From: Rhexocercosporidium sp. MPI-PUGE-AT-0058
Taxonomy: Eukaryota; Ascomycota; Leotiomycetes; Helotiales
Direction of reading: 5' to 3'
DNA: 64,000 bases
NCBI GenBank assembly: GCA_020746875.1
Contig: JAGTJL010000028.1
Location: 388,131 to 452,130, forward strand
This document shows, piece after piece, positions 97 through 64,000 of the stretch. The translations under genes and the position numbers were made by a program. Below the pieces are notes generated by a model. That model did not search any database, had not been told where the DNA came from, and was given only the letters and a program-made list of their open reading frames with translations. Every line of letters starts with the position of its first letter. The first letter of the stretch is position 1.

Positions 97-1227
97 TCAA
101 ATATCATTTGCGCAATGAAACGTCTCGTATACACAATCAACTGGCGTGTAAAGAGAGTTTCCCAGTATCGTTTTGATGCCGATTGAGCCATAGGTGTAGG
201 AATTAAAGTCTCCAGTGAAATTGCCTTTGAGCTTGATGACTCCTGGATCCCTATCGGGCATAGAGAATTGAAGCCGATACGTATAGGCCATGGTGCAACT
301 ACTCTGATCATTCTCCATCAGTCTTTCACAGGTGAATTTGGGCTCCTTCCCATATTCGAAGTCCATATTGGATGGTTCCCATCCTTCATGCTCGTGTGGC
401 ACTCGTAACAAGATTTCCACGTTGCTCCACGAGTAGATCACTTTGTAGAAAACGGTTGTGACTTTCTTGGTCGACATCATTTCTTCCTCGTCTTGAATCC
501 TTTTCTTTGTGGCGCGACGGCCAGATTGTCGCTGGCTTTTCAGGTTCTGGCAAACAAAATCCTCTGCTTTCTGTTTGCAGTCAATAGCAACTGTAGATAC
601 GTATTGTTTGCTGCAGCTACCGTCAACATCCCCGTCAACGTGCATCATGAGTTCGTCACGCGTCTTAAATTTTGTTCCACAGCCTTCCCAGGATGTTTTC
701 TTTGAAGGTTTAACCGACGGATTGCGATACCGACAAGTCCAAGTACCCGGTAAATCTCTAACCTTGTAAAATCCCAAAGTATTCCACCTGACAACAGCTA
801 TCAAATTCTGAGACACATTCTTGTAGCATTTTCCACCAGTTGCCTTTAAATGAGCTACAAGACCATCCTCCCTTGCAAAGGCCTTACCGCAGCCCCAGGA
901 TTGATCGAATATAGAAATGGATATCATGCCTTGGCAGACAAATTGCTTCTGCTCGTCGTGTATCAATTCATGACGGGCTCTGTCTCTGAGTGTCGCAAAA
1001 GCTTTGGAACAGCCGTCCTGCCGCCGACAAATAAACTGGCGTTCGTTGGTGTGACTCCGACGAGTATGTTCGTTCAAGGCGCCGCGCCGTGTGAAGCGTT
1101 TGGAACAGAGAGGATCTGCGCATGGATACCGAGCCGGTTCTTTGGTTTGTCGTGTGGTTTCTTGGGAAGGCTGAGCCGGCTCAAGAGACTTAGTTTGATC
1201 TCCTGGAACATAGATCGCTGAGTCCAT
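97..1227 (-). CDS. C2H2-type zinc-finger protein
   Basis: Single open exon of 376 aa. Four zinc-finger-like units are visible. Finger 1 has C36, C41, H54, H59. Finger 2 has C67, C73, H86, H90. Finger 3 is a C2HC variant with an enlarged first knuckle (C98, C113, H126, C134) followed by the WGCGKAF pattern seen in many fungal C2H2 proteins. A weaker unit has C165, C183, H196, C205. A basic stretch (SGRRATKKR) near residue 236 could be a nuclear-localisation signal. The C-terminal third has no motif I recognise. The family usually binds DNA in the nucleus as a transcription factor; the target is unknown. Its 5' end faces the alternating 12-bp array that begins about 350 bp upstream, so the two could share a regulatory interval, but nothing proves it. 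The first ATG fits the start. Confidence 0.8.
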   Translation of the reverse strand: MDSAIYVPGDQTKSLEPAQPSQETTRQTKEPARYPCADPLCSKRFTRRGALNEHTRRSHTNERQFICRRQDGCSKAFATLRDRARHELIHDEQKQFVCQGMISISIFDQSWGCGKAFAREDGLVAHLKATGGKCYKNVSQNLIAVVRWNTLGFYKVRDLPGTWTCRYRNPSVKPSKKTSWEGCGTKFKTRDELMMHVDGDVDGSCSKQYVSTVAIDCKQKAEDFVCQNLKSQRQSGRRATKKRIQDEEEMMSTKKVTTVFYKVIYSWSNVEILLRVPHEHEGWEPSNMDFEYGKEPKFTCERLMENDQSSCTMAYTYRLQFSMPDRDPGVIKLKGNFTGDFNSYTYGSIGIKTILGNSLYTPVDCVYETFHCANDI

Positions 1228-1576
1228 TTTGAGACTGATTCAATCGGGGCTCTGGTCGAAGGGATCGAGGTAGGATGTTGGAAAACTTGTTGCGAAACTG
1301 ATTTATTTTAGCCTTATTAAGTTTCGCTCGGGATAAGCTATACCTTTGAGAGCTTCACAAGCATTTACGCCTCGATTTCCCGACTCTTCAGATCGATGAT
1401 CTAAAGGTCGACTTAAGGATTTGAATTCGCCCTGCATAAAGAAGGCAGATACCTTGGTGAGATCAAGGAAGGTGCTTATGTTTTCCCTACTGAGAAAGAT
1501 AACTCTAGATATGGGCTAGAATGGGACGCATATCTCTAGCCAGCAAGCTCTTCAGGGAGACGATGCACATCCAGTA

Positions 1577-2934
1577 TTTGCGTCGCCTTGATCAAAGATG
1601 TTGCTCACCGACACAGGTTTGCATGTGTGGCTAATATTTACTCAGCCCAAGGCGACGCAGGCTGCAGCGGGAGGATACTCGTACCGGGGATTGGCCTTCG
1701 GAGTACATGCTACGACAGGGTCTCGGGATTTGTGCCTCAAGGCGGCAGGGTTCGAAGCATTTGGCGCGAAACTACTCGCACACTAAGTAGCGCGTGGCGC
1801 ACTGATGAGAGAGACGGGGGAACAGGGGAGGGCCAGGGACCAAGTGGGTTGTGCTCCGTTGTTCATCACGACTACTGCTGTCCTCCCATCTGCGTCGCCT
1901 TGAGCTCATCGGCATTGTCCCCGCCATATGCACCTCTAGCGACCATGGATTTCAGCCGTGCATGTGGCTTGCATGGACCGGAACAACTTTCCTCAAGGCG
2001 ACGCTCTTGTTACTTGCTATACATTCAGCATTTGCGTCGCCTTGGCATGCTGGGCATAGAACTAGATGATCTACACTGCCCAATTATCTTGATATTGCTC
2101 CACCATAATCTCATGGGTGGGAACAAGTGATCCAGAAGTCTACCAGAAACTGCTGGGGAGCTGTGTCCAAGGCGACGCAATGCTCTGCCGAACCACAGGA
2201 CAACATTCTGATTGGCCGGCATTTTGACTACCTCCCTCTTCAACGTGGAACCTCCCCGTGCTAGGTATTTGCGTCGCTTTGAGCCTTTTGATATATGGGA
2301 GCAGACGATCCATGTGAAATAGAGTCTGCATGCTGCGCCTACCGGTCCTTGGCAATGAGACAAGGCTGTACGATTCTTGTACCGTACTTCGCCAACCTCT
2401 CTGAAGGCGACGCACTCCAGGTTGTCGATCTGAACAGACTATGAAGGGCCAATAATCATATTTTGATCCACTTCTCTACGCTTACCTGTACAACATGCGT
2501 CGCCTTGGGTGCCCCGTTTGAGGACCACCCCTCGGCAGGTACGGAGATAGCCTGCACTTGACCTGGTCAAATCCCTTCTAGAAGGCGACGCATCTCCCCG
2601 GTTGAGACTCTGAGACCTCTGGTACCAGTATGTCCCCATGAATATACGAGTTGAACAATAGCTTGCCGTTTTTGCGTCGCCTTGGATCTCCCAACATCGG
2701 AACCAGCCGCTCGGCAGCTTCGTCGACGACCTGCACCAGACTGAGTGAAATGATCTTTGGTAGAAGGCGACGCATCCACCAGACCAGGTCTCCAACGAGG
2801 TATTCTCCGCAAGCCTACAGTTCGAAGTCATCCCTCGTACACTTTGCGTCGCCTTGAAGTCTCCGGGTATCGTCTTCGTCGCCACGTAGATATGGCGGTG
2901 ATGTCTGTTCTCAATGGACAAATATGGCGACGCA
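1577..2934. repeat. Alternating inverted 12-bp motif array
   Basis: The motif TGCGTCGCCTTG and its reverse complement occur 14 times in strict alternation. Forward copies: 1579-1590, 1891-1902, 2033-2044, 2270-2281 (one C>T), 2496-2507, 2673-2684, 2845-2856. Reverse copies: 1648-1659, 1994-2004, 2168-2179, 2403-2414, 2581-2592, 2763-2774, 2926-2934. Reverse copies 4-6 start GAAGG instead of CAAGG; the last keeps only 9 bases of the core. Five of seven forward copies are preceded by TT. Spacers inside forward-reverse pairs are 57-123 bp. Those between pairs are 28-90 bp, apart from one of 231 bp that holds a degenerate copy near 1738. Spacers look unrelated to each other, have mixed base composition and show no RIP signature. 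No long reading frame spans the array. Its function is unknown. Confidence 0.9.
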
Positions 2935-3132
2935 GATAGTCCTTTCTGGACCTTTACAACGCCGCCCAGCAGGAGTTTCTACTTAAGCTGTGGTTCCCCA
3001 GCTATCATTTTGATACCCCAACACTCCACCAGACTTCTGTGTATCGCAAAAGTGCTAAATCCTACTCACGCCAGAGACACACTCACACAGAGACTGCACC
3101 AACCCAAAGCCCTATTCCACCCTATTAGCACA

Positions 3133-3811
3133 ATGGCTGACAACATCTGGACACCTGAAATCATTGCTACTATCGTCTACCGAGTAATTATGATCCTTGT
3201 CAGCCTCGCTTTCATCTGGAGGGAGTACCGCCACGTCCGTCCGCAACTCGATGGTACGACCTCACTCATTCTCTTCGCACTCACTTGGATGCAGAAGAGC
3301 TAACAATTCTTCGACAGAAGAACAGCTTATCAGCATTCTTGTCCAAAGGCAAAGCTTTTCTCCAGCTGTTGCCCTAACTTCAGGCCGGCAGGATGATGTC
3401 GTTAACACTCACCCAACACCAAGGCTCCGAGACCACTTCAGAACCAATTCGAACAACATAGTTGCATCGGCACTTGGACTTGATCTCGGTGGAACACCTC
3501 GTGATGTTACAACAACCGCTCCTTTGAGAACATCGACCGCTTCTTATCCACATACGATATCAAGCTCTGGACTTGTCCATGCACCAGGCCAGCCGGATAT
3601 CACAGGGGTACTGCCCTTGCGTCAATTCTGCCAGACTGCCGCTCGCCCACGCCCAGTCTCGAACTCCATACCCGATCATGGCGGGGGAAACGGCACTGCC
3701 GATATACACATGCGTCCGATCCAACATCATCAACGTTCCCTTTCCAATACATTGACTGCTTATGCACCAGAACGAAGCGCCACCGCTAAGAGCGAGAGAA
3801 ACGACGAATGA
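3133..3811 (+). CDS. Uncertain small membrane protein, possibly decayed
   Basis: An ATG at 3133 opens a peptide with one strong hydrophobic segment (IIATIVYRVIMILVSLAF). A plausible intron at 3254-3317 has a GTACGA donor, a GCTAAC branch site and a CAG acceptor, and joins in phase to an open frame ending at 3811. The spliced product would be about 204 aa. The C-terminal half in this frame is low-complexity. The other two forward frames also give protein-like pieces over 3500-4004, for example FENIDRFLSTYDIKLW in one and a stretch ending at 4004 with NRFSLFRLAHEG in another. Either further introns exist or the gene has frameshifts. I do not recognise a family. Confidence in the first exon and membrane segment is moderate; confidence in the 3' structure is low. 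Confidence 0.35.
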
Positions 3812-19650: not shown

Positions 19651-21229
19651 TTACAATAATTTTCGCTCATAGGTAGACCGCGCGTATGTGGACTTCGGAC
19701 TTGGGTGCGATGATGACTGACTGAAAATCGAAGGAATTTTCTTAGGAGAAGCGTCCAGGTTGACCCGATATGACGAGTCTGTTTTGACACGATCGAGTAT
19801 CGCTTGAAGCTGCTTGTGTAGCTCTACAGCGTGGATGCGGTCCTCGTAGTGAATCTTCAATAGGTTCTCGTCGACAATGTCAACGATTGCCGACATGGGG
19901 GTGCGGCGACATCGCTCATCAGCTCGCAGACCATCCATCGCCTCAATGACTTTTGGATGTACCTCCCACTTTTCCCATTCTTCCGAAATTTGGCGGTCGT
20001 GGGACCACTTGAGGCGGTAATATTGGTACTCGTTGGGGTCGAGAGAGCCAGTAAAGTTTGTGATTGCTGTGAAGTCGTATAAGAGCCACACGATGAACTC
20101 GAGTATGATGCAGCCCATCGACCAACAATCGTATCGACGCGACCTTGCCAACTCATTCGTAGCCTCCGGGGCCTCGTATGCTCGAGTCGATACCGACGTA
20201 ATCGTCTTGCCTCTGGCGAAGCCAGTTTTCTGGGTGTGTGTTCGTGCGATGCCGAAATCCGCAATCTTCAAGATGCGGGTGCCATTTTGGGTAAAGTAGA
20301 GGATATTCGCAGGCTTGAGGTCTCCATGACGACAATTGATCTCGTGGAGAAGCTCCAGGGCGTGCGCCAGGCCGACCATTTGTTCGAGAGACCACAAGAA
20401 GTCATCTGGTCTTTTTAAAAAATCGCGTTTCCAGAATTGTGCCAGATCCCCGCCGTCTGCCCAGGGGAATATGATGCATGGAACTAGATCGCAGATAGCC
20501 AGATGCTTCACGAGATGGTCGTACTGTATGTTCTTGGAGCGAATCGTGTCCAGGATGTTCTTCTCCCGGTCAAAGTCGGATACCCGGGTAAATTTCTTGA
20601 TGGCTACATACATTGGCTTCCCCGAGTGTGCCTTTAAGTTGTCGTTAGTTGACCGAAATGGGCGATGGAAGTTGATGTCAACGTACACTGATAGCGCCTT
20701 TGAAGACGGTGCTAAATTCGGTTTTAGCAAGCTCCTCGCAAGAAGCAAACGCTGGTTTGAGTGCGCAATGCTTATTGAGTGGAATGTTTGTCACTGTCCC
20801 GGCATCGTGATCGAGCTCCATGGTTGGCTTTAGGACCCTCCACTGCTTCTTGAGAAACGCGCCAACATCTCGTGGTGTGCAAGTCGCAAATGACCTAAAG
20901 ACCTTAATACGGGAGGCAGACTGGATATCGCGACCATTTTGAGAAAGGGGAAGATCTCCATCTGTGAGGTCTTCTGCCAGTAGACTCTCGATGATTTTTT
21001 CTAGGCGTGTCAGTATGCAGATGGCGATGACTTTCTTTGCCTGTTGAATTCTGTTCTCGGCATTGCAATCCCAGGATGGAATCCATTGGTTCACGCGTGC
21101 CTCAGTCAGCAATTCCTTCACTGCTGGCAACGTAATCTTTTTCTCGAAGGATTCCAAGTTCCCGATGTACTTCTTGCCAGTAAAGGGACATGTCACATTC
21201 GGGCCAAGCTCGCCAGGCAGAGATGTCAT
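19651..21229 (-). CDS. Protein kinase-like protein with fungal N-terminal domain
   Basis: Two exons on the minus strand, 21229-20687 and 20631-19651, joined across a 55-nt intron with GTACGT donor and a CTAAC branch site. The product is about 507 aa from the first ATG. The kinase domain starts near residue 170 (STVFKGAIS, a degenerate Gly-rich loop). It has VAIKKF (Lys193), HGDLKPANIL (Asp285), ADFGIA (Asp306) and the EAPEA segment, so catalytic residues are present. The N-terminal half (about 1-165) resembles the N-terminal region of the kinase-HET gene at 25.5 kb, with a helical stretch followed by a VLKPTMELD-like hinge. Here the protein ends after the kinase with a Ser/Pro-rich tail and has no HET domain. 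Another 5' exon upstream (open frame near 21560-21321) is possible. Substrate and pathway are unknown. Confidence 0.8.
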
Positions 21230-25498: not shown

Positions 25499-28400
25499 AT
25501 GCCATCAGAAGCCAAGATAGATATGTCTGCGGACACGCTTAAGGGCGTGCTCACCAACATCAGGGCGGTGACGGTGTCGAAAAAGAAGAATAATAAGAAG
25601 TTTATTCCAGAGACTCTCTTGGCGAAAGTTATGAATCCCACGGCTGTGAAGGGAGTTCTTGAGGAGCAGAGGAAAAAATTAGACCTCAAGTCCACCGTTA
25701 CTATCGACAAATTGGCCAACTTCTTTAGCAAAGAAGCGTTCAAGATATTTGCAATCCTCGCAACCAATAATCTCTTCGGCTTGGCCGAGCACTTTTGGCA
25801 GCATGACTTCCAGAACGACTTGCTTCCAGTCAGAAAGAGGTGGTTGAATGATAATGATGATGATGATTGGGAAATCGAGTCATGCATAGATGGAGACCAA
25901 ATTGTCGCTGAAATCCGCGAGCAAATCCAAGCCAAAGTCCACCAGGTTTTCTCTTGGGGCGACAACAGTCCATGGGGCGAAACGGATAACTTGGTCAGAC
26001 AATTCTGCGACTTTTGGCAATGGGAGTTCGTCCCTCCAGTTTTCGTCGAAGACAGATTTCGGTATGAGTTTCCAGATGAAATCCACTTACCCTTTACACG
26101 TATTGGAGAACAGAAGCAGCCGAAATCGGACACCTTTTATAGCTACGTGCAGGAGATGAGTATCCATGCAGATCACCTTCCAAAGGCTCTTGTAAGACAC
26201 CTCAAACTTCTTGTGAACTGAAAGTAAGGTTTCTATATTCACTGACCTATTGGTAGGAAACTGCTATGGATGATCAGAACAATCATCGTGTTGCTATTAA
26301 GCAGCTGAAGCAGTCGGGCCCAAACTTCAAGAAGGTGGCCGCAGACGAAGCCAGCGTTCTCGAGATAATGCGAGAGCTCGGAGAGGAACACCACTTAATC
26401 AAAGCCATCGCGTACTACCAGAAAGGAGAGGACCTCCACTATTTCATATTTCCCTGGGCGGAACTAGGAAATCTTTGGGAATTTTGGACTTCGAGAAATA
26501 AAAGCCCCGAGACAGACCCAGACTATATGATCTGGGCATTGACGCAGCTCACAGGCTTGGCTAGCGCCCTTGAAGCGCTGCACCATATGGCTACTGATAC
26601 TGACGTCAACTGCCGTCACGGCGACCTAAAACCCCTCAACATTCTCTGTTTCAAGACAGAAGATGGTGGTAACCACAATCCGAGACTGGTTATCACCGAC
26701 GTCGGCCTCGCCAGAGTTCATAACGAGGCGACCCGCGAGCGTGGTAAAACTACAACTGCGGCCTGGACTATCAGGTACGCAGCGCCAGAGCTCGTAGTTG
26801 ACTCTAACACGACTCGATCCCGACGATTCGACATTTGGTCCTTTGGATGTATTCTACTAGAATGCGTCGTTTGGCTCTTATATGGCTCCAAGAAGCTGTT
26901 GGAATTTGCTCACGATCCCGAGGAACCGTTTTACGAACTTTTACCTCCAGCACCCGGCTTTCAGACGAGAGACCTATCAGCTCGACATCTGGAAGTCGAG
27001 ATCAAGGAGAAGAAGACTCTTCAGGTTCATAGTAGAGTTCAATATTGGATCACCTACATCAAGAAGCACGATTGGCGCTATTCTAAAGGGACAGCACTTC
27101 AAAAGTTGGTTGACCTGATCGTCGATAGGATGTTGAAAGTGGATCTTGGTCCTTTGGGCCCTGCTGACAGAGACAACTCTATTCCATCCACCAGAAATCC
27201 CCCCTCATCCCCTAATACACCAGGCCAAATAGTAACAGAAACTATGACGAAAGAGCCGATTCCAGCTTCCCAGAAGTCTATCCCAGTTATAACGAAAACC
27301 CTCGTCGGTGAGCAAGACTCAACTTTACAACTACCTCCCCCAAGTATCAAACGTCTTAGAAAGGCTAGAACCTGGGGCCGAAAAGGAAAAGCTACGAATC
27401 ATCTGTCTCGCGATCCACAGTATCGTGCCTATGCTCCAGAAGTAAAGGAGAAGTTGGAGGCTATTCTTGAGGAATTGGAAAATGGGAATATCGAGGCGTT
27501 TGGAAGTAAGCCCTCAAATGAAACAGCAGCGGCCCCGGGACCTTCACCGGCACCCATCGTTGGAAACGCTGGTGGTCTCGGAATTCCTGGCGAACCTGAC
27601 CGCACCTGGGTATGTGAACCTTCTTTAGACTACGATATCACTTCATTTTCTAATTCTGTCTTAGCAAAATGTGAGCCTCTAATTAGACTTTGATCAATTC
27701 ACTGTCGTCGCTAACGAACTTGTCCCTTGAAAAGGAAGTAAGCTCATAGGATACTGTGGTTTGCTTGATACTAATACTCATCCTCCTTCTCTCTAGTACG
27801 TAAGTAACACCAGGTCATGCAATCGAATTAATTAGGAAGTTTAAAAGGCTAATTTTTGATTTTCGCCCTATTTTGGCTGAGCAGAGAGTAAGTCCCTTCA
27901 CGCTAATAATAACTGTGATTCCCATTTGGCCAACATATTTACTAAACGGCCGCCTATTCCTAGTTTGTGAGTATTTCAGTGACGGCACTCATTTGAGCTC
28001 TGTGACTAATTTACCTTCCAACAGACTGTACGTCGATTATCAAGTCCTGTTTTATCAATTTTGAAGTAGCGAGCTACTTATTTCATGGAAATGCCATCGC
28101 TGACCATTCTTTTTACAGCCTGTTAGATACCTCCCTTCTCCTTTCCACAGGCGCAAGCTAAAGTACCTCCAGCTAACCGATAACTGGGATTATGCCCCTG
28201 ATGACACTATTGCTAGAAAAGTTCTTACCGGCCTTTACTCAAAGACAATATTACCCTTATTCCGCGAATCTTCTAAACTTTGTCACCGCTGCATTAGTTT
28301 GAGATTATGGTCTCTTAATTGTACTTTTGTGGACTCGCTCGCGGGACTAGAAGAGAAGGCCAACACAGAGGGATGTGAACTATGCAGCTTGCTTTTACAA

Positions 28401-30215
28401 GGCCTTCAGGTTCGGATAAAAAGACATTCCGACTTCGTCCGCTTCGCCAGAATTGGTTCATACTTAACCATTGATGATGGTCAAGGCCAAGCTTTCGCCA
28501 ACCTCTACAAAATGCCAGGTGTGTGCAGAGCTTAATAAGGCTTAATTTGTCTTTGCCACTGCTCACAATCCAACAGGTTTTCAAAATGATGATTTGCAGA
28601 GTATTCAGCTGGGGCTTTCCAGACTGCCTAGTGCCGGCAGCGAGACGCATTACAAGATCCTGAGAGAATGGATTCGCTCTTGCGACAGAACCGATCAATG
28701 CTACCCGAAACATCTTGACTTTCTCCCCACACGGCTTCTGGACGTCAGCAGTAGTGACTCCAAAACCATCAGGCTCCTGGACATAGGGCGAGGCAACACT
28801 GTGCCGAGAAGATACATTGCTCTATCCCACCGTTGGGGTTCGCCAGAACATAACACCAAGTTCTGCACTTACAAGTCCAACATCGAGGATTTTAAACTAG
28901 GCATTAATATAAGCCGGCTCCCAAAGACCTTCCAGGATGCCGTCAACGTCACCCGTGGTCTGGGTCTGGGATACCTTTGGATAGACTCGTTGTGTATTGT
29001 CCAGGACGACGAAAACGACTGGGAGGCAGAGGCCAAACTTATGGGGCGCGTCTTTAGTTCAGCATACTGCACTATTGCAGCCAGCTGTGCCAGCGGGAGC
29101 AGCGACGGGTTCCTCAAGCCAAGGCAGGGGAGAAGAACTGTCGTAATGCAGGGGCCCCAAGGAGACGAGATCTTTTGCGTATGTGAGGCTATCGACGACT
29201 TCTACCGAGATGTCGACCAGGGTGAGCTAAATCAGAGGGGCTGGGTCCTGCAGGAGCGAGCACTGTCACGACGGACAATCTACTTCACGGAGACCCAGTC
29301 GTACTGGGAATGCGGAGGAGGCGTGCGGTGCGAGACAATGACAAAGATGAAAAAGTACGTTATTACCTTCTCTCTCCTTCTGGGGACGAACTGTAATACC
29401 CAGGCTCCTGCCTCTATCTATAAGAACCAACCTATTCTATTCGCTTTGAGACTCAGTGCTAACCTATCTCCCTACCCAAAAGCCGCAAAGCATCGTTCCT
29501 TGGCGACTCCAACTTCCCCAATTCTGCCGAGAAATATGTCAAAGGGATGCGAATCGAGCTCTTCCAAGACCTCTATGAGCGCTACTCTCGATTAAACCTC
29601 TCATTCCCTTCAGACCGCCCCATCGCGATCAAAGGCCTTGAGTCCCGACTTATCGACACCTTCGGCACTACCGGTGGCTATGGTGTCTTTGACAAATACC
29701 TACACCGTTGTCTGCTTTGGCAACGAGCTGGCAAAGCACTGAAGCACATCGAAGCCTTCCGTGGTGGTAAATTAGTGCCGTCTTGGTCGTGGATGGCATA
29801 CGATGGTCCTATTCGCTATACCACCGTTCCTTTTGGCGAAGCTTCGTGGAATGGGGATATTACGTCACCTTTCACTAAGACTGGGCAGGCTCTGAGAGGA
29901 AGCGAACATGAAGGTGACGGTATTTCCACATCGATGCTTGAGTTAGAAACGCCAGTCTGGGATATCTTTGATACAAAAGACGGACAGATCATTCTGGACA
30001 ACCCGTCTCGTACCATTGATCAAGCTCTGCAGTGCGTCGTTGTTGGAAATGACAAGACAACGAACATAAATGGGCGGCAGGCGTATTATGTTTTGTTGGT
30101 TCTCTTCATTACAAACATCAATGAAAATCATGTGTATGAGAGGGTTGGAGTAGGTGTCTTGGATCGGCGCCACATTGCTCTTGATGGTAAACAAAGAATG
30201 GCTAAGATTCGATAG
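25499..30215 (+). CDS. Protein kinase-HET domain fusion protein
   Basis: I read this as one gene. Exons: 25499-26191, 26257-27609, 27665-27670, 27735-27737, 27797-27799, 27885-27887, 27964-27966, 28025-28027, 28119-28518, 28577-29354, 29483-30215. The total is 1325 codons plus stop with phase preserved at every junction. Residues 1-231 are a helical N-terminal region also seen in the 19.7-kb kinase. A kinase domain (about 232-500) has VAIKQL (Lys246), CRHGDLKPLN (Asp354) and AAPEL (Glu409). DFG is replaced by DVG (379-381), so activity is uncertain. A low-complexity linker reaches Trp682, then microexon residues 683-689, then NWDYAPDDTIARKVL (711-725) and a Cys-rich stretch (LCHRC, CELC). The HET domain follows, with YIALSHRWG (902-910) and LWIDSLCIVQDD (946-957). 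HET proteins control heterokaryon incompatibility and cell death on non-self recognition. The alternative is two adjacent genes. Confidence 0.75.
27610..28118 (+). other. Seven consecutive introns with 3-6-nt exons
   Basis: Introns 27610-27664, 27671-27734, 27738-27796, 27800-27884, 27888-27963, 27967-28024 and 28028-28118 (55-91 nt). Donors in order: GTATGT, GTGAGC, GTAAGC, GTAAGT, GTAAGT, GTGAGT, GTACGT. Branch candidates: TCTAATT, GCTAACG, ACTAATA, GCTAATT, ACTAAAC, ACTAATT, GCTGACC. All end in AG. The exons between them are CAAAAT, GAA, TAC, AGA, TTT and ACT, all in phase 0, adding Q-N-E-Y-R-F-T between the kinase half and the HET half. Nested splicing (stwintron-like) of the same block is an alternative. 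Confidence 0.7.
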
Positions 30216-51854: not shown

Positions 51855-53529
51855 TAACGTGGTTTATCACCGAGAGGCGCACTTTTCCTTGGCATAAGAC
51901 TTCAAATACTAATAAATTAATTATAATAAAGTAAATTAACTAAAACTACTCTGAATTTATTAAAGCAATTACTTTATAATATCTTAATAAGTTCGTGTAA
52001 TATAGCCAGTCTCTTTGCAGACTTTATAGTATTTTACAGCCGGCTGACCCTCCTTGCGACTATTCCGTATTATACGTATATCGCGTCGTACTTCTTTCTT
52101 TGCTTTCTTGCGGGCTATTATATCTTGCGTATCTTTTATTATAAATGCGCCTTTTTAACGAATACAAGTCTTTTTCGCCTTACGCGTTTGCTAAATATTT
52201 CATTAGCTGCTGGAAGAACGCGTACTTCGGCAAATAAAAAGGTTATTTCATGCGCTATTCGCTTTGTACTCTTTATTAAAGCTTTAATTATCTCGAAAAG
52301 AAGAGTTGGCGAGCTCTTTTAATAATAGGTAATCCGGTTTCGAATAAGAACTGTTTATAAAAGAGCTTTAATAAGGTTTAAAGGAGTCTAAAAGACTTAA
52401 GGGTCGATATCGGTAAGAAGGGTCCGCGGGAGAATTAGAGTTCTTAATTTCACGTTAAGCTTTAAAAGTATTACTTACGAGTCGAAAGGCATAAGGCTAG
52501 CTTTACGGAACTTAGCTTAATAATTTTAAGTTATTATTAATTCTTTAAATACTGCCGTAAAGGCTAAGAAGAACTCAACTTTTGTAATATAATTAATATA
52601 AGCCTTAATAAAAGTCTCGATCTGCCGGTTATACGCCCGCTTTAAGATATTAAAATACCCGACGTTAAGAAGCTAAGTGAGATAAGAAGAGTAAAGAAGT
52701 AATCCGAGAGTTATAATATTATATGCCTTATAATACTTTTAAAATTCGGCCGATTCGTGACTCTTATACTTATTAAGAACTAGTATTCGGTAAGGACCTT
52801 TTACTCGAGTAGCAGTATATTTATTAAAGTGTTTTATTTAATTTAAATTTATTTTCTTATTTGTTCATTTATTCTTCATCGACTTAATAACTCAGTCGCG
52901 TGAGAAGCCGCCTTCCGTATATTAGTTCGCGAGGTAATTCTTTTTTTAAATAACTAAAAACAAGAGTATATAATAGCTTTTGCTATTAATATAAGTAATC
53001 GCTGTAGCTTATTCTCGATTTCCTGGCTAAACTTCCTTGCTTCTGCCACGTCGATCTGCCCGAGTAACGATTATTATAACGTAAATAATACTTATTAAAA
53101 AGCTTATTTCGTCGAAGTTATAAAAATTAAAGTCCGTAATCTCGTATTTTGCCTTTATATTCTTAACTAGCCGGAACCACGCGCTTAGCGCGTCAAGATC
53201 TTCGTATAAGGCCTTTTAGAAGTCGTAAATACAAGTAAAACGCGTCTTTAAGTCTAGTTAGCGTTATATAAATCGATGCGCCTAGAGCTTGCCGACGCGT
53301 CCTCCTCCCTTCGATTCTAGGATATAATTCGCTATATCTGCTATACTAGTAAGCCGGGGTGCAAATCTTTTTAAATTTAGATCGAGTATATATTAAATAA
53401 TTACTTGCTCTTTTAACTTAAAGAGTTTATAATAATTAAGTTGTATTTCGCTGCGAGGGGTTCGGCCGGTTATTCTTTTGCAAAGTATTATTTGGGATAC
53501 TTTATAAATCTTTGCTGCAAACCGATAGC

Positions 53530-55370
53530 TAACGTCGAGCACCCCCCTTCCGCCTACCTCGCGTAATATTAGCACTCTTTATTTAATACTTAATAATTTT
53601 ATTTTACGTTAACTTTTATATAAGAAATTATAAAGCCAGAATCTCTTTTTAATTTTAGTTCTATTAATATAATTTGACGATTTTTAGTCGTAATTTAAGC
53701 CGCTTAAATAGCACGTATTATCGTAAACTTAGAATTTAAGCTAGTTTAGATTTTCTTTTTTTTCCTTAACTTCAATTGCTTTAATTACTTTTTTAATTTT
53801 TTAATTTTTATATTTACTTTTCTTAATTTATAATATTTTTTATTAAATTCTTTTATAATTTTCTTAAAGAGTAAACGCTGCGTCTGATGCTAATTATGTA
53901 ATTCCCTTATTAAAGTGCGTATTTGTAAATAAAAATCTTTTATAGCTTTAGGAGTTTATAACTAAATAAAAGTGCTAGAAGGCTCGGGAGGTGATATTAT
54001 TATTTTATAAGATTCTTAAAGAGCCGGAGCTATCGATTTATTACTATTTTTTAATAATAACGGGCTTATTAAGGGTTTCGCTAAAAATATCGGTTATAAT
54101 CTATTAGTTTTTTATTTAAATTTAATATTAAAAAGAGTAATAATATCTCGGCGTGTTTTTAATAGTAAAGAAGGAAATTGCGCTTGTTAATTAGCGTGGA
54201 ATTAATTAAAGAACTTAATTTATATAATTCCTTTCGGTAAGCGCGCTTTAATATAAAGAAAACCGTTAAATTTAAAGATTATAAGATATATAATATATAT
54301 ATAAGTAAATATAATAGAAATATATTATTTTTAAGGCACTTTTAAAGGAATTCCGTAGTCTTATAGCTCCCGTGGCTGTTTAAAATAAAGAGTCTTATTA
54401 AATGATTACGTAGTTATATTTAAGGGATAAATGCTTTCTTTAACTATTTAAAAGCCGTATTATTAGTTGTTTATTTATTATCGGTTATAATAAAGTGCCA
54501 ATTATTAAATACGTTTAATTAAGACGAAAACTATTATTATTACACCGATTTTCCTTTATAAATTGTAAGAAGTTATATAAAGACTCCGGTTATAGAGATA
54601 TATTTAATAATTAACGTTTAAATACGTAAGCTTAATTGTTTTTTTTTTTAAATCTTGCGCTTTTCGGCGTGCCTTATAACGAATTTATTAAGACCGTAGC
54701 TTTTTATAATACCGGTCTCGTCTATATTCCATCGTTAATTAACTAGAATAGCCTTAATAGCTGGGATCTCTAGTTTTTGAAACTAAGGCTTAATAACTTC
54801 GGAATAAGCGCAGTTAAAATATATAAAATCAATATATATTTGCTTCTTCGTCTTTAAAATAGGATTCCGTGCCAAAAACTTGTAAATCTAGTGTTTTCCA
54901 AGTAATAAATAGTTTCTTTAAAGAATTAAAAGTCTCTTTTTAAAAACCTTAATTTATATATGCGTAATTCCACGGTTAAGAGATTCCTACGTCAAAATCT
55001 AATTAGTTAATCGATTTTCTATTACCGTAAGTAGCCTTTGCAAGTAGTTAGCACCTTCCTGGCGTAATAAAGTAATTGCGTTGCGGTTACGAAGTATAGA
55101 CTTCGGAATACTTTACTTAAGCAATGCCTTTCACAAAGACTTATCATTTGCGATTTCTGCAAGCGCAAATATAACGTTATACTCGGTATATTAAGGCTTT
55201 ATAATAAGAGTAAGTTATATTCCAAATTTGAGAAGAATTAATTAAAGAATTAAGGAGTAATTAATTATTTAAGTTAGTAGGTAGATATAGCGGTGAGTTA
55301 AGCGAGGTAGGCGGAAGGGGGGGGGGGGGGGGGGGGGGGGGGGTAGGCGTAAGGGGGGTGCTCGACGTTA
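53530..55370. mobile_element. Nested inverted-repeat element
   Basis: The left arm at 53530-53562 starts TAACGTCGAGCACCCCCCTT, followed by CCGCCTACCTCGC. The right arm at 55302-55370 is the inverse, with an inserted copy of the GGTAGGCG...GGGGGG unit and a run of 27 G. This places a 1.8-kb element inside, and later than, the larger 51.9-55.5 kb element. The interior is RIP-decayed and non-coding. Confidence 0.6.
55317..55343. repeat. Homopolymer of 27 G
   Basis: Uninterrupted G run inside the right arm of the nested element. It is probably an expansion of the shorter G run present in that arm, and its assembled length may be unreliable. Confidence 0.9.
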
Positions 55371-55539
55371 AGTTTTTTTAATATCCGAATAGCCTTAATA
55401 ATTAGAATAATTCGAGCTTTAGTTATATGGATTTCTATTTGTAATTATTAAGCTATCGCGTCATAAAGGTATGAGGTAGGATGCTAAGGAAAAGTGCGCC
55501 GCTCGGTGATATGCGCCGCTCGGTGATAAATCACGTTAT

Positions 55540-56190
55540 TCATAAAATCATGGTAAAGTGTGACTTGGCCCACATAATACACACACACAATTTATTAACG
55601 CCCGGCGGCTAACCCGATAGGGCAACTATTACTAATATACAAGTACATTTCCGAAAGTGAACTCTTAACTCCTTGAGCCCTTACATCGCCTGTTTCTTGC
55701 TTCTGCCTTCTCTCTTCTGACTTCTCTCTACCCCATAATACAGTCGCTTACAGAATCGGCTTCCCCTCCAAAGTCGTAAAAGATTATGAGCCCCTCCTAC
55801 CAAAAAAGGCCCGGTGTATCATCCTCCTCCTAGAACGAGCTAGGTAATTACCCCCACGAAATGATTTCCGCTTTTAACAGCAATTAGTGCCACCCCACTC
55901 TCCCATGTCGAAAGCGCTAGACCTGAAGCCTGGCAATTGTTCCTGGTTCAGCTGGTGCGTGGCAGATTTTTTCAAAAGTCAAGATTTAACCCTTCAAACA
56001 TTCAAACACCAATAAGGCTGAACATCTGAAAATTAACGCTCCATCTACATAACCCTGCTCGAGCGGTTCCATAGCATACAAAGATTTTGAAAGTCGCTTT
56101 GTTAATCTGGCGTCGCAGTTCTGTGAGATAGCTGAGTAAGTAGCCCGGCGGGAATTTGCACCGAAAATAACTAAATTTGTCAGCCTTACC
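55540..56190. other. Promoter side of the HET gene
   Basis: Composition returns to normal at about 55580. Contains short CT-rich stretches; no gene recognised. Confidence 0.45.
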
Positions 56191-58352
56191 ATGGCACATA
56201 CCACTCATACAGTTCCATTTATTGCCGATTTTAAATACCCATATTTGTTACTGCACAGCTGCACCTATTGCAAGAGAATTATCATCGACTCTTCTGCACC
56301 GGATACCGTACATCTGCGTAATCATGCAACATTCGTCAACCCTTTCAAGTTCGAGTACGCGGAAATTGTTCAAGCAAGTAATGATGGCTGCACATTTCTA
56401 TTGCCAGTACTGGACGCCATCCAAAGTCAAAGCCAGTCACTGGACACCTCGAGTCCGCATTCTGGGCTGCTAGCGGCTGGTACACTCTTCATAGATATTC
56501 ATATCAAGTACCAGGAAGCGAAAGGAACAGTATCGGAGTTTACGAATGTAAGCCAGGCAAAGGTTTACTGGCGACAGGCGAACAGAAATGTATCGCCAGA
56601 ACAAGGGAACCCTGTGGTTCGATTTGGTGATTACATTATCTCTGCAGAACTTGGTAAGCAACCAATATGCATCAAAACGTAAAACAAGTCAGCATAGGTT
56701 AACAAAGCTAATTTGACTTAGATGATAGAGCCGCCACTTATATTAGTCAACGACCCCAATATCCATGGATAAACACTGTATCAACCTTCACGGCTATTAA
56801 GGAATGGCTTCATATTTGCAACACTCGCTCCAAATGTCTTCAAGTTCCTGATCTCAAAGATTCCACTAGACTCAGCCGCGGACCATCTAGAATGATCCTG
56901 GTAGGCAGAAGTGACTTGCAAACTGTCAGAATCGTCAGCCCGAAGAATAGAGTCAAGTATATCGCCCTATCATATTGCTGGGGAGGAGACAGCTCTATGA
57001 GATTGACTCGGGCTGACCTGGACACTTGGCAACAAGCTATTGTGATAAGTCAACTTCCAAAGACACTGCAAGATGCTATTATATCTACACGTCTCCTTGG
57101 GTTTGAGTATCTCTGGGTAGATCGACTTTGTATTGTTCAAGATGACCCGGAAGATATTCATCAAGAAATTGCAGCCATGCCCGAGGTTTACCGGAATGCT
57201 ACGCTCACCCTCTCGGCATCATCAGCACAAAGTAGCGATGAAGGGTTCCTGCACACATCGCCAGCCACTTACCAAAGACTGGACCAAAGTCTAGTCATGT
57301 TGCCTTACCGTTGCCCAGATATGAGCTATGACCGTGCAATATTGACTAGACTAACGGACCAGGATAATCCATTGGACGCAAAGTCACCAGTGGATCGTCG
57401 AGCATGGACAATGCAGGAACAAATGCTTTCAACACGCCTCATCCAGTTTGGATCAAACGGAATCCACTGGATTTGCAAATGTTCTTCCGTCAGACATTGG
57501 CATGATGGCATAGAAGTAAGAACAGAAGCCAAAGAACAAGGCAAGTTTTATCAGCCGAGAGACATGGATTTTGACTGGGCATGGGCGTATATCGTAGTCA
57601 ACTATACCCAGAGAGCACTCAGCGTCCAAACGGACAAGTTGATAGCTCTGGCAGCAGTTGCACAAGATATTTCGATACGTGTTGATAAGCCGACCCGATA
57701 TCTAGCCGGTATTTGGCAGCATCAGTTGCCCAATAACTTGATGTGGTGTGTTGACGGCAAGAATAAAGGGCTACGGCCATCATCTTATCGGGCTCCGTCA
57801 TGGTCGTGGGCAGCTGTTGACGGTCAAATCAATCCTGATTATTTTGGATGGGATACATCTTACGCAATTTATCTTACTATCAGAGACTGTGCTGTAACTC
57901 CGGTGTCGCCAATGTTACCATACGGATCAGTAGCTGCTGGCTATATCTCAGTACGTGGCCGGTTAAGGAAGATGAAACTGAACCTGGAAACAAAATATCT
58001 GCAATCATCAATGGAGAATGATGGAAAGCTTGCTCGAAGCATACTTGATGCTGCTGATGAAACCATTCCTCGAGATCCTACAGGTGGATGGCTACTTGTC
58101 TTCTGTTTGGAAGTGGGATGCAAATTCAGCGACGCGGAGGACGATGAGGAACCCCAGCCATGTGCCTTTGGCTTGATACTTACCCCAGCTTCGGACCATG
58201 CTTCTAGTGGCTATTTCGACGAAGAAGCAGAAACGCCATTCCCAAGAGAATCGGTCTTCCGACGGGTAGGCATATTTGACAGTGAAAACCTGGGAACGGC
58301 CAAGACAATTTCTTTTGGAGATTGCCCAGTTATGCATATCAAGATTATTTGA
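56191..58352 (+). CDS. HET-domain protein
   Basis: Two exons, 56191-56653 and 56722-58352, with a 68-nt intron (GTAAGC donor, GCTAAT branch, TTAG acceptor), giving 697 aa. The N-terminal part (about 1-150) contains a CTYC pair and is typical of HET proteins with a variable leader. The HET domain begins after WLHICNTRSKC and contains YIALSYCWGG (234-243), LPKTLQDAI and EYLWVDRLCIVQDD (283-296; Arg replaces the usual Ser). WTMQEQMLSTRLIQF and, later, APSWSWAAVDGQI follow, which are the standard downstream HET blocks. HET proteins trigger incompatibility or cell death after non-self contact. The gene looks intact despite lying 650 bp from RIP-mutated DNA. Confidence 0.92.
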
Positions 58353-61300
58353 AAAACTACGGGTTGTTGAGAGCAATAAATAACCGATCCCTAAGACAAG
58401 ATTGAAGCTGTTAACAAACATGGTTCATTTCGAGTGTGAGTAGCCACGCCTCATCCTCGTACGAAATTTCGAGATCCACTTACAGGCAAATCAATGCACT
58501 TAATAGTAACTAGTAGTAACTTTGAGTGTTTATACTTGGGGCTAGATATTTGCGGGCTGATTTCATTGACTACTTAGAATGTATCTGGCGTTGCTAATTG
58601 ATAGTCTGTGCACAAAGTTTTGTATTTGGTTGCAAGAAGGAGACCGATTTTGCCGTGTGGCTGATAGACTTTGCCGACATTTTCCGCTTCCCGACATACT
58701 CCGAGAAGCGCCATAAGCCACTTTTTTGCACCAATCGAGCGCTATTTTGGCCCAAGTCCAATACTAATATCTGCCATAATATCCGTCATCGAAACTTCCA
58801 TTGCGATATATTTGACTGCCCACCTTTTGCATACCTTAATAGCTCTTTCCCAACTCATAAGACAACCCTTTCTACTTAATACAATGAACCTCCACGATTT
58901 TCAGCTCTGGTCTACTAGGAATTCCGCTCTATTAGAGATCCTTACTTTGATATCGCGCCAACTTTCCAGTTGAGTCTGAGTGGAATGCCCGGCTCGAGTG
59001 CAAGGATATTCGAAATAGAAATAGCACGACGAGACTGCGATCCCCCGCGAAGACACCTATAGCAGTTCAGAGGATGATAGCGTAGCAGCGACTGCAAGCA
59101 CGGCGGTTTACATAATATACGGATATAAGGCAAATCAAGCACAAGCACGACAAGCAAAGGCAAAGGAAACTAAGGCCAACTTCTATTTCTATTTGCCTGA
59201 TTGTACGTCCATCCTGTTATATCTAACTATTATTATTATTATGCCAAATGATTAACGAAGACCAATAATTCCCATATAATAAAGCAATCGCGAAGCCAGC
59301 GCGGGCTACTTCATTTAAATTCAATTAAGGACTAATCCATTAGTTTTGTCCCTTATACAGCAGTCTTATCGTCCGCATCCTCTGATAATACATCCGCGCC
59401 TCTAGGGCTCTCCATAGTTTTGGCATAATATCATCTTCCGTAGCGGGTGTTCTAGTAGTCTATACTACTGAGGCTCTGGCTGATTCTAGCAAGAGCGCTT
59501 TGTTTATCCGCGCCACCTTGATACTTGGCTCTGGCGCATCTGCCTCTAGCAGATCACTCTTCCGCTTTCGACCGCGCTTCGCCTCCGGAGTAGCAGCATC
59601 TGCCTCTGGTATAGCACTTTAATGCTTACGGCTGCGTTTGCCTTTACCTTTAGCTTCTTTAGCAATATCTTTTTTAGCACGCTTTACTCGTGCTTCATCA
59701 AGGTCTTCGTAGCTCATAACCCTTACCGTACCTAATATTAACGATTTAGTTTTCCGTCGAACTTTAGTTTCATCGTTAAATATAATCAGGAATCGAACCT
59801 GGTTATCCTACAAGGCGCCCTAAGCAAGAGATATCTGGCCGGCCTTAACGAGCTTCTGTACGTGTCTTTTGTAAGTTCCTTTTACTTGCGTCATCGAGTG
59901 CATGAGTATCTTATTTAATAATTAAATTTTATAAAAACAGAAGGGCCTCTGCTAATACTAGCGTTACAGGCGTTTGTAATATTATATTTTGCGGACGAGC
60001 ACTTACTTTTATTTTATCGACTGTCGGAATATTTAAGTCTGTAAGAGGCTTAGTTATATCTTTGAGTACTTTCTCTGGATTTAACGGGAATAAACTATTA
60101 GTAGCGAAACTAGCTTTGATATTCTTTAATATAAATGCTTTTTCCTTTATAAAGCTAAAAAAAGCGGTGAAATATTATATGCCGATTATATTTATTCTTC
60201 TTCGCTTAAGTCGATTAACTTAATTATAATACGCTGCTTTTAGTAAGGCGAATACTGCGATATCATAAAGCTGGAGCTTATATATAACGACAGGTATGCT
60301 TCGGCTAAGTCAGGGGTCCGGAACAGGTCCGACCCTCCTCCGGCTCCTTATATATATGCCTCCCTTCTATATATTAGCTCTATAGTTTTTATATTTTAAG
60401 TATTAAGTCTATTTTTACGTTTAAGGCTCTTGCGTCGTTATATTATATAAAAACTCTTTTACGTGCGTTTAAAGTATTTACTACTGCTGCTGCTGCTACT
60501 ATTCCTTTTGCTACTCGATTGGATTAAAGTCGTTGATTTTATTATCGATACTATTTACTTATATTTACTCTTTATACGTATTTTTACTTATATACGACTC
60601 CTCCGTATCTAGCCCGTTACTTTTAATATTATATAATATTTTAAAATTAAACCTTTTTTAATTTCTTTCTTTAATATAGACTTTTAATAATAACTATAAG
60701 CTCTCCGCTAGTAATTCACCGACGAGCTCGCTTATAAGGACTCTTAAATCGAAGCTCTCTCTTCCATAGTCGCTTCTTTTTAAAGCTCTTTAGCTTAAAT
60801 ATTACATACTTAAAGAGTATAATTTATTAAGGAAAAGGAAAGATATAATTTAAATAAAAAGAAAAAGTTATAATAATAATAATCATTATTATTATTAAAG
60901 AATATTACATTAAAGGCTATCTTAAATACAATAAGAGGCAGCTCAGTCACGTGACAAATAAACCTCTAAGGTTAACTGTCGGTGTAACTGTACCGGGACA
61001 TATAATAATAAAGTCACCTAAATAAATATTAATATTATTAAGTGATTTTAAAAGTATTATAAAGTGTATTTTTCTAAAATAAGAGTAAAGCTCTTTATAT
61101 ACCGGTCCAGAACCCCACTAAAACCCCACCGTTTCGGCCTTAAGCTAGAGTTTTATATCGATAAGAATCCCTATAAATTAATATAAATAAAACTTCTTTT
61201 AAAAAAACAATAAGAGTTATAAACGTAAAAGAAAAGAGTATATAAAAAAATAAAAAATAAAATATATTAAGAAAAGAGGCCGTAGTAATAAAATAAAAAA

Positions 61301-63162
61301 GCCGAACTCTATTAGCAAACAATAGGTAGCTAAGCGAGGAGCTCGACTAGCCACTAAAGTGCTTGCTATTGTCGATTAATTATAAATATAAGGAAAAATC
61401 TCTCTTAAAAATTGACTTAATCTCTTAAATAACTACATTAATAAAGTCTATACTCTTAAATTATTAATTTATATGAGAACGAAATACTAATAAATTTTAT
61501 AAACTTAACAATAATAATAATAATAATAAATAAGTTATTATTAATTTAAGATTAATTTAATGTTAATTTAATAATAATTTAAATGTTAATAAATAATATA
61601 ATGTTAATTCCCGTTCTTACCGGTGCCCTCTAGGCTGCCTACCGTATGTACTGCCTCCGCTGCGCCCGCCTTATGACGACGATTCCGTCGTATAATTGCC
61701 TCTTTTATAATAAGAAGGAGAAGAAATGCACTTATTGCGTAAAATAAAAGATTTTTTACGTCCCCGTAAGTTATAAAATCTTAAAATTAACTCTAAAAAC
61801 AATTCGTAAAGGCTCCGTGTTTGACATATGACTTAACTCCTTTAATACGTAGGTAAGGAGTTCTTTATCCTCTTCGCTGCTGTAGTAGTAAAGGATAAGG
61901 CTATTATGGTCGCCGCCGCGACCGAAATCGATTCCGTTTACTTAATTGCCTCGGCGGAGGCGCTAAAGACCGAAAAGGAGGCGTTAGTAGCGTTACTAAA
62001 GGAAACTCGTATTCTCTATAAAAGGTATTTAACTTATTAAATAACGTTAATATAAATACTTTTAATTTTAACTTAATATTTAATTAATATTAACGCTTAA
62101 AGACTTTATTAAAGTTTTCTTATTACGTAATAATAAAGGCGGCGAAAAAGCGTCGTTAGAGAGATTTTAATACGGGAGGAAATAAGGACGAGGCGGAGGA
62201 GAAGGATAATAAGCCTGCGGCCGAGCAGGAAATTACTCGCGCTAAGCGCCGTCGTCTTCGCCGCTCGTCGTTTTAAAGGCCTTATTTCGGATTGACTTTA
62301 TAATTAACTCTTTATAATAATACTTTCTTTATATTTTTATATAAGAGTAACCTCTTATAATAAAACCGGCAGCTAAGTCCTTATTAAAGTGTCGTTATAA
62401 AACCGCTTATTAATGCTTTAAATTAAAAAGTAAATAAAAAATTTAATTATCGTTTCTTGTTTTGTAAATTAAAAGTAATATGAAATATGATATAAAAAGA
62501 GCGTAAATATATAAAAAAAAATTAAAAGTTAAAGAAAAACTACTACTTTCTGAAACGACACTAAAACTAGTCTGAATTACCTCCGGTTAGCCTTTAAATC
62601 CAACCCTTTATTTTAATAATAAAAGAATTTAAATTAATTAATTTTTAAAAAGCCTTATTTAAATTTACTTTAATTATTATATTAATAAGATTGCGAGTTT
62701 TATTAATCTATCTTATCTCCGTTAACTTTTTGCGTTCGTACGACTGTCAAATAGCTATTATATTAATTATTAAACGTTTTTCTTTTATTATGCCGAATTT
62801 AATAATACATTTATATAACGAAAGAAAGTCTATATAGACGACGGTAAGGAGGCGTAAAAGGCCGAGCTTATTAGTTATTATAGCAACGGTAGTCGACACA
62901 AAAATAAATATATTAATATTTATTATTATAGCGTAAAACTTAAAAATAAAAATAATACGTGTTACCCTTTTATATTTCGTTAAGTTAGCGTGGATAATAT
63001 TATCACGGAATATAAACTTTAAATTCCCTTCCGTTTTAATATTAATTAATATTAAAAACCCGATTTATAAACTTAAGTCTTTATTATTAATAAAGGAGCT
63101 GTTAACAAAGGCGTATACCTTAACGGACCGCAAATTAATAAATATATACCGCAGGCCTCTCT
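58353..63162. other. AT-rich decayed repeat tract
   Basis: About 4.8 kb with strong AT bias, increasing from about 59200, and no intact gene. GC-richer patches at 59380-59720, 60300-60350 and 61620-62280 look like less mutated pieces of older elements. TAA/TTA density and broken frames fit RIP. No terminal repeats were resolved here. Confidence 0.6.
61620..62280 (+). pseudogene. RIP-decayed Cys-rich protein remnant
   Basis: Plus-strand fragments in changing frames give YCLRCA, KKCTYCVK and a spaced Cys pattern. After an intron-like AT gap come KEALVALLKETRILYKRY and an acidic, then basic, tail (KDEAEEKDNKPA, ITRAKRRRLRRSS). This resembles short fungal zinc-knuckle proteins with two CxxC pairs. 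In-frame TAA codons and loss of frame show it is dead. Confidence 0.4.
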
Positions 63163-63475
63163 TGTGAGAATAGGCGAGCCAATCAGAATGAGGAAGCGCA
63201 GTAGGTGAGGACACGTGATCAAAGACAAAGTAGAATTGATTGCTTGCTTACTTGAAGAGCTAAAAGAGCTCTACGGTAATTATATACAAAATAATAGCTT
63301 CTCTAAAAGCTTCTACGACTACGTAACTAATTACGTAGCTTATACGAGCTACGTAATTGAATACGAGCGTAATTTCCCGGAATACAAAGGTAATTTCCGG
63401 GCCGCGTAAGCAATAGAAACTCCTTCGGCTATTCTAAGGTAAAATCGGCACGAGTTACCGAAGTGAAATCCAACA
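63163..63475 (-). repeat. Ty1/copia LTR, 313 bp
   Basis: Begins TGTGAGAATA and ends ATCCAACA on the plus strand, i.e. 5'-TG...CA-3'. On the minus strand it starts TGTTGGATTTC and is preceded by the purine-rich AAGAGGGCG (63476-63484), a polypurine tract. It lies directly downstream of a copia RNase H fragment in minus orientation, so it is that element's 3' LTR. The 64-codon frame inside (63215-63409) is not a gene. Confidence 0.65.
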
Positions 63476-63649
63476 CGCCCTCTTAATAAGTGACGTAATA
63501 GCTTTATAAGCTTATATATAAGCTAGCTTTAAAGCAGAGCTTATATTTACAAGAACAGAGTAAATACATGAAATAACCCTTTACGGAGGGTAGGCCAGAT
63601 GTAAAGAGAAAGAAATACAAATTACAATCTCGTTTCCTCCGCTTTAGCC

Positions 63650-64000
63650 CTATTCGGCTAGTCTTAAAAGCCTTATGAATTCGATGAATTTAGGCTTATC
63701 TAGCGGCTTCGTAAAGCCGTCGGCTTTTTATTTAGACCCTCTTATATAAATTAAGTCTATTTCGCCTTAATTTATAAAGTCGCAGACGTAATAGTATTTA
63801 ACGGCAATATACTTAGTTCTCTCGTGGAATTGAGAGTTATTAGCTAATAAGAGAGCGCCGTTATTATCCGTATAAACAAGGAATCGTTCCTGTATGTAAT
63901 AGCCTAATTCGGTTAGAAGCTGTTTTATATAAACAGCCTCTTTAAAAGCCGAATTAATAGCCATATATTCGGCCTCGGTCGTACTTTAAGCTATAATATT
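63650..64000 (-). pseudogene. Ty1/copia RNase H fragment with stops
   Basis: The 3' end of a copia polyprotein on the minus strand, running off the window. Recognisable are TEAEYMAINSAFKEAVYIKQ, FLVYTDNNGALLLANN, RTKYIAVKYYYVCDFI and, after a stop, GEIDLIYIRGSK and DGFTKPLDKPKF, ending RLLRLAE plus the natural stop at 63650. At least three in-frame TAA codons interrupt it, one where the family normally has Gln after FIN, consistent with C-to-T change by RIP. The D of YTDN and the D of KADGF are still visible. Confidence 0.85.

Follow-up and report, generated by a model that had tools for sequence, protein, structure and literature searches.

The window analysed here is a stretch of 64,000 nucleotides from the ascomycete Rhexocercosporidium sp. 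MPI-PUGE-AT-0058, a fungus of soil or roots, belonging to the contig that we refer to as C21. Near its start, the intergenic region between two divergent genes is filled by an array of short sites, and both genes are transcribed away from it (Table 1). The plus-strand gene was modelled by eye from its open reading frames (ORFs), with one intron at about 3254-3317. Farther along the window are two protein-kinase-like and two HET-domain ORFs (19651-20790, 26257-27693, 28546-29595 and 56712-58352), as well as a run of 27 G at 55317-55343. GC content drops to 0.30-0.34 at 52001-56000 and 60001-64000, near the contig end, as expected of repeat-induced mutation or of a chromosome end.

Table 1. Features of the array and its neighbourhood, in window coordinates.
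Feature	Position	Strand	Remark
C2H2 zinc-finger gene	97-1227	-	376 aa; Crz1-like fingers; array neighbour
Possible decayed site R0	1519-1530	-	putative; 3 mismatches; orientation as alternation requires
Site F1	1579-1590	+	exact
Site R1	1648-1659	-	exact
Stretch of 139 bp in R1-F2 spacer	1742-1880	+	95% copy on C7; read as insertion
Site F2	1891-1902	+	exact
Site R2	1994-2005	-	one mismatch
Site F3	2033-2044	+	exact
Site R3	2168-2179	-	exact
Site F4	2270-2281	+	one mismatch
Site R4	2403-2414	-	one mismatch, common to R4, R5, R6
Site F5	2496-2507	+	exact
Interior D5	2508-2580	+	diverged relative of D6
Site R5	2581-2592	-	one mismatch
Site F6	2673-2684	+	exact
Interior D6	2685-2762	+	diverged relative of D5
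Site R6	2763-2774	-	one mismatch
Site F7	2845-2856	+	exact
Site R7	2923-2934	-	two mismatches
Second neighbour gene	3133-3811	+	ORFs; no Pfam match

Between positions 1579 and 2934, TGCGTCGCCTTG is present in seven forward (F) and seven reverse (R) copies whose orientation switches strictly from each to the next, as an earlier sequence-only reading of this DNA had described. That reading spoke simply of copies, which holds for the eight exact sites and is slightly loose for the other six, five of which have one mismatch and one of which (R7) has two. Letters 2-8 and 11 are invariant in all 14 copies, letters 1, 9 and 10 are the same in 13, and letter 12 in 10; deviating letters number 1/84 in the F copies and 6/84 in the R copies. 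The gaps are 57, 91, 123, 121, 73, 78 and 66 bases from F to R, and 231, 27, 90, 81, 80 and 70 bases from R to F, so that the spacer range, previously put at 28-231 bp, is 27-231. The spacers had also been called unique, which is not true of all of them: 1742-1880 is copied on another contig (C7) and in part on a third (C9), and units 5 and 6 have related interiors.

The array is not a product of chance, as the sequence-only reading had maintained. With up to two mismatches, 17 matches are found in the window, whereas 100 shuffles gave 3.89 on average and never more than 9; those outside the array lie at 68, 1075 and 14704. For 14 independent sites, the probability of strict alternation is 1.2e-4. 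The dismissal of a CRISPR array was likewise correct, the direct repeats and similar spacer lengths of such arrays being absent here. The array is absent from the output of Tandem Repeats Finder, and no helical phasing of the sites is significant (P 0.32, 0.81 and 0.66; 0.076 with the 139 bp subtracted). Upstream of F1, the possible site R0 scores 9.1, compared to 15.9 for the lowest array copy, and is outscored by four other places of the window outside the array. It should be noted that TGCGTCCCATT occurs at 68 (plus strand, 68-79) and, reversed, at 1519-1530; both places are array-site-like, possibly by chance. In addition, the sequence at 1737-1744, TCAAGGCG, is the start of an R-like site that breaks off at the beginning of the 139-bp stretch; another site may have been interrupted there by the insertion.

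In order to determine how common the motif is, as the sequence-only reading had proposed, the whole genome (62.7 Mb) was searched. Exact copies are not common elsewhere: the 12-mer is found at 11 places, eight of them in the array, and the same pattern read backwards at two. The remaining three are single places on contigs C6, C6 and C13, two of which sit within long open frames (659 and 408 codons). With at most one mismatch there are 239 places, the first 100 of them listed and 13 of the total being array copies, vs. 130 for the backwards pattern. The pair pattern, namely GCGTCGCC followed after 50-80 bases by GGCGACGC, occurs at three places in the genome, all in the array, and never when read backwards. 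No comparable array is present in 14 other loci (138,644 bases), which were chosen for other reasons and give no genome-wide base rate, and no fungal or other counterpart was found in the open-licence literature. A chimeric assembly artefact was considered and appears unlikely, because a DNA search of limited sensitivity matched nothing in the spacers to other parts of the genome except the 139-bp stretch. The array is real, rare and unusually orderly.

A coding gene over the array was also considered and appears unlikely. The motif copies fall in differing frames, and the two longest ORFs of the array (196 and 179 codons) have no Pfam match; no homologue was found for the 179-codon ORF, and the 196-codon ORF has only a C7 protein, by way of the common 139-bp stretch. 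With these two ORFs as queries, no annotated gene was found to cover the array; such a gene, like a motif abundant throughout the genome, would have spoken against the sequence-only reading. A point against the non-coding reading is the length of the two ORFs, which exceeds that seen in shuffles (P 0.02 for the 196-codon ORF; 0/300 for the other). Codon preference, a weakly separating measure, is mostly low over the array, with a single 120-base window (2640) at 0.20, like the flanking genes. A tRNA scan with the bacterial setting found none.

Origin of the alternation

The reading that we favour, with somewhat less than even confidence, is that the array consists of putative protein-binding sites in a promoter shared by the two genes, alternating because an inverted pair of sites was duplicated. 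The sites would form a row for a sequence-specific protein within the promoter region of the divergent pair; we infer both the binding and the identity of the binder discussed below. Of the three readings offered from the sequence alone, namely transcript hairpins, a row of sites for a DNA-binding protein and DNA inversion, the second fits best, with the binding itself still putative. The array has the many near-identical short sites in noncoding DNA that define a homotypic cluster, with all 14 sites being intergenic.

The ancestral unit would have been an inverted site pair (F, spacer, R, spacer; about 170-180 bp) that was duplicated in tandem, after which the spacers would have drifted and the sites would have been kept by purifying selection. 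Since each unit carried the inverted pair, the alternation would have been inherited rather than achieved site by site. A total of 210 spacer comparisons were made, in which D denotes the F-to-R interior of a unit and I denotes the R-to-F spacer. Interiors D5 and D6 proved to be related (0/5000 shuffles; Gumbel p 1.6e-5 with 210 comparisons). Their aligned letters are identical at 47/71 positions (66%), while the F and R sites of both units agree at 24/24, for which P is ~5e-5 at the interior identity. Sites conserved above their spacers, as in homotypic clusters, are found in D5/D6 only.

Several smaller resemblances fit a shared descent of copies of the same type. R4-R6 have C at position 12 in common, R5 and R6 have a 16-mer in common, and 10 of the 12 letters upstream of F1 and F3 are alike. 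The three letters upstream of the site are ATT-like in the F copies (leave-one-out 16/21) and not in the R copies (5/21; Fisher p 0.0008), a signal with a chance of 0.0013 for any three adjacent columns of 16. The long R1-F2 gap is readily brought into line with the others: its 231 bases minus the 139-bp stretch leave 92, within the range of the other gaps. The stretch matches C7 at 132/139 positions, and part of it matches C9 at 62/67; the matching positions are 1501-1639 in the C7 locus (L010) and 1501-1567 in the C9 locus (L011). About 295 bp are common to these two loci at 96%, and the DNA in which the C9 copy lies is AT-rich; parts of the C7 locus have apparently been copied elsewhere.

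Other results speak against this reading. Detectable homology among unit pairs is confined to units 5 and 6, and same-orientation comparisons on average (z 0.21 for D-D and 0.17 for I-I) are no better than the controls (0.50 for D-D reversed and 0.37 for D-I reversed). Nor would a simple tandem origin account for a borderline similarity between D3 and reversed I5 (2/5000 shuffles; corrected for 210 comparisons, about 0.07). Furthermore, binding by a protein is not favoured by the lack of helical phasing, nor by the absence of an exact-site regulon elsewhere in the genome, where the three remaining places include two in long open frames. A palindromic super-symmetry of the whole array was considered as well and discarded, the pairwise comparisons having no consistent centre. 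On the sequence evidence, the array resembles a tandem series of two-site units that has decayed, and we infer that its origin was a seven-fold tandem one. The earlier statement that this is not a normal tandem repeat is thus half right: the array is not an ordinary one, but it does resemble a decayed tandem repeat of two-site units.

Hairpins, repeat decay, inversion and introns

In the hairpin explanation, which we consider unlikely, the plus-strand transcript would be a row of stem-loops with F arms pairing with R arms, serving as protein platforms or small-RNA precursors. Any F is able to pair with any R, and the predicted folds of whole units are better than those of shuffles (z -1.85 to -5.20 for the seven units on both strands). 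It also agrees with this explanation that the F arms deviate less than the R arms, the single F change giving a G-U pair on the plus strand, and that the F-only upstream flank gives the array strand specificity. However, the z-scores of the units come from their 12-bp arms; interiors alone fold like shuffles (z -1.55 to 0.91), as do the R-to-F gaps (z -0.76 to 0.84). Matched flanks or compensatory changes, which would mark a stem-loop array, were not observed. With 4, 8 and 12 flanking bases, F_i/R_i flank pairing ranks 2310, 625 and 3307 of 5040 orders, R_i/F_i+1 pairing ranks 2185, 2990 and 2510, and pairing on the minus strand ranks 2623, 1517 and 3299. Of the plus-strand arm pairs, 77/84 are Watson-Crick, 2 are G-U and 5 are broken, with 7 broken on the minus strand; doubly changed pairs number 0/84. 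When the region is folded as a whole, the lowest-energy structure does not keep to neighbouring partners: on the plus strand F6 pairs with R6, and the other sites pair farther away or on the gap side. A 12-bp stem is short for Dicer. No Rfam family matches the array, either in the window at the gathering threshold or in 1200-3200 with permissive settings; sub-threshold matches to SNORD23 and SMAD5-AS1_2 on the minus strand were read as chance. Judged from sequence and predicted folds, a fixed hairpin row is unsupported, and the transcript-hairpin proposal is disfavoured by the absence of a flank preference between neighbouring arms, the lack of doubly changed pairs and the shuffle-like interiors.

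It is distinctly unlikely that the array is a decayed satellite-like or functionless repeat in which chance or recent gene conversion has preserved the 12-mers. The confinement of the array to one locus would suit such a repeat, and so would the weak signs of ongoing decay, namely the possible older copy at 1519 and the one insertion, but the unchanged sites of D5/D6 at 66% interior identity are hard to explain without selection on the sites, and gene conversion is not known to work habitually in tracts of precisely 12 letters in the two orientations. Sites for recombination by which the intervening segments are inverted, as in bacterial shufflons, are a very improbable explanation, even though alternating short inverted sites are the shufflon hallmark and are plainly present. 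By reasoning, any F x R inversion would leave the alternation intact, and the borderline similarity of D3 to reversed I5 points in the same direction. Repeated inversion at many sites should nevertheless spread the F flank to R copies, whereas the flank is found on F only, and R and F copies differ at position 12. No recombinase or transposase family was matched by Pfam among the 34 window ORFs of at least 150 codons (a few of them trimmed to their ATG, and one scanned in two pieces), and the tyrosine recombinase gene expected near a shufflon is not among them. With the F-only flank, this leaves the inversion proposal disfavoured.

A scarcely credible alternative is that the seven units are hairpin-closed introns of one spliced gene, of the introner-like or stwintron type with terminal inverted repeats. 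GT or GC does lie 5, 8 or 11 bases 5' of each F, AG lies 1 to 23 bases past each R, and the implied intron sizes are fungus-like. Against this, the donor consensus has G at position 5, which is found in 0/7 of the GT donors in reach; D1 alone has, as judged by eye, a good branch site; none of the three frames is free of stops in spacer I4 or in I5; and the two longest ORFs led to no array-spanning protein. According to the published account, introner-like families are dispersed over many genes, and symmetrical fungal introns or stwintrons have terminal repeats of 45-55 nt and many genomic copies (PMC8469720). Dispersed similar copies in other genes were not found here, the array being at one locus apart from the 139-bp stretch. 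Taken together, fixed hairpins, inversion sites and introns are all disfavoured.

Candidate binder and comparison with known systems

If the sites are bound by a protein, the likeliest binder is the neighbouring Crz1-like C2H2 regulator, which we put forward as a candidate only and a rather doubtful one. It would control its own gene, the divergent neighbour, or both. The protein has several C2H2 fingers and homologues in Leptodontidium and Cadophora; its best relative in the same genome is a C12 protein (E 1.5e-21; next 1.2e-5). We take the C12 protein to be Crz1/CrzA, and the neighbour itself not to be Crz1. By the finger code, the neighbour presumably retains the contacts to the third G (finger 3), to GC (finger 2) and to the third G (finger 1), from which NNG-GCN-NNG would be predicted, and presumably lacks, through loss, the arginine that would contact the 5' G, a position occupied by A in the motif. 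The motif fits NNG-GCN-NNG, but so do 3.0% of random 12-mers and 6.4% of shuffled motifs, making this a weaker test than the core below.

The Crz1 site has been published as GNGGC(G/T)CA for yeast and as GGAGGC(G/A)C(T/A)G for Candida, where Crz1 also binds to the promoter of its own gene (PMC6942403). The reversed motif CAAGGCGACGCA (C-AAG-GCG-ACG-CA) includes AGGCGNNG in the register of the Crz1 site and fits the published site. It also has the core AGGC(G/A)NNG, to which 0.46% of random 12-mers, 0.40% of the 12-mers in the window and 1.1% of shuffled motifs conform. In place of the 5' G of GNGGC the motif has A, and the array site was for this reason not filed as a calcineurin-dependent response element (CDRE). 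The least conserved letter, 12, falls outside the nine-letter footprint of three fingers, but so do the conserved letters 1-2 and the conserved flank of F. With 12 conserved letters, or 15 in F, the site is longer than this footprint, and this speaks against a three-finger protein as a full explanation.

A further proposal, which is long on speculation and decidedly unlikely, is a one-locus module: a dedicated C2H2 protein, derived from Crz1, would have the 14-site array to itself, and bound F and R sites would pair and fold the promoter region into loops. If this were true, the F/R asymmetry would mean two kinds of site per pair.

Strict alternation at such number and fidelity is unusual for a promoter. 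The adjoining gene could encode the array's own binder, in which case one gel shift could pair protein with site. If the duplication reading is true, a promoter has grown by copying an inverted pair of sites, and the alternation is a fossil of that history. A caution also follows, namely that alternation alone is no evidence for hairpins or DNA inversion.

Several known systems can be compared to the array. In the bacterial shufflons (Rci/sfx of R64), short asymmetric sites alternate between differing segments; the array is like them in all of these respects and unlike them in having no recombinase family found nearby, distinct F and R flanks, and a place in a fungal nucleus. The subterminal TnpA sites of plant En/Spm elements are 12 bp long, occur in both orientations and are bound by the product of a nearby gene. 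The array likewise has 12-bp sites in both orientations and a putative binder encoded close by, whereas it has no terminal repeats or transposase that we could find and is single-copy in the genome. With introner-like elements and symmetrical stwintrons it has in common short elements, inverted ends and an ascomycete host, and it is set apart by its repeats of only 12 letters, its single locus and its poor splice signals. Homotypic clusters of transcription-factor sites in promoters are usually mixed in orientation and quality. The array differs from them in that its 14 sites are strictly alternating, nearly without degeneracy and confined to one locus, and resembles them in having many near-identical short sites between divergent genes, with spacers drifting freely. 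Compared to the published Crz1/CrzA sites and autoregulation, it has A in place of the 5' G of GNGGC, a longer motif and a far higher copy number, and shares the core AGGC(G/A)NNG, the Crz1-like fingers of the neighbour and the position upstream of that gene. A looping module, finally, would resemble parS/ParB or CENP-B arrays rather than an ordinary regulon.
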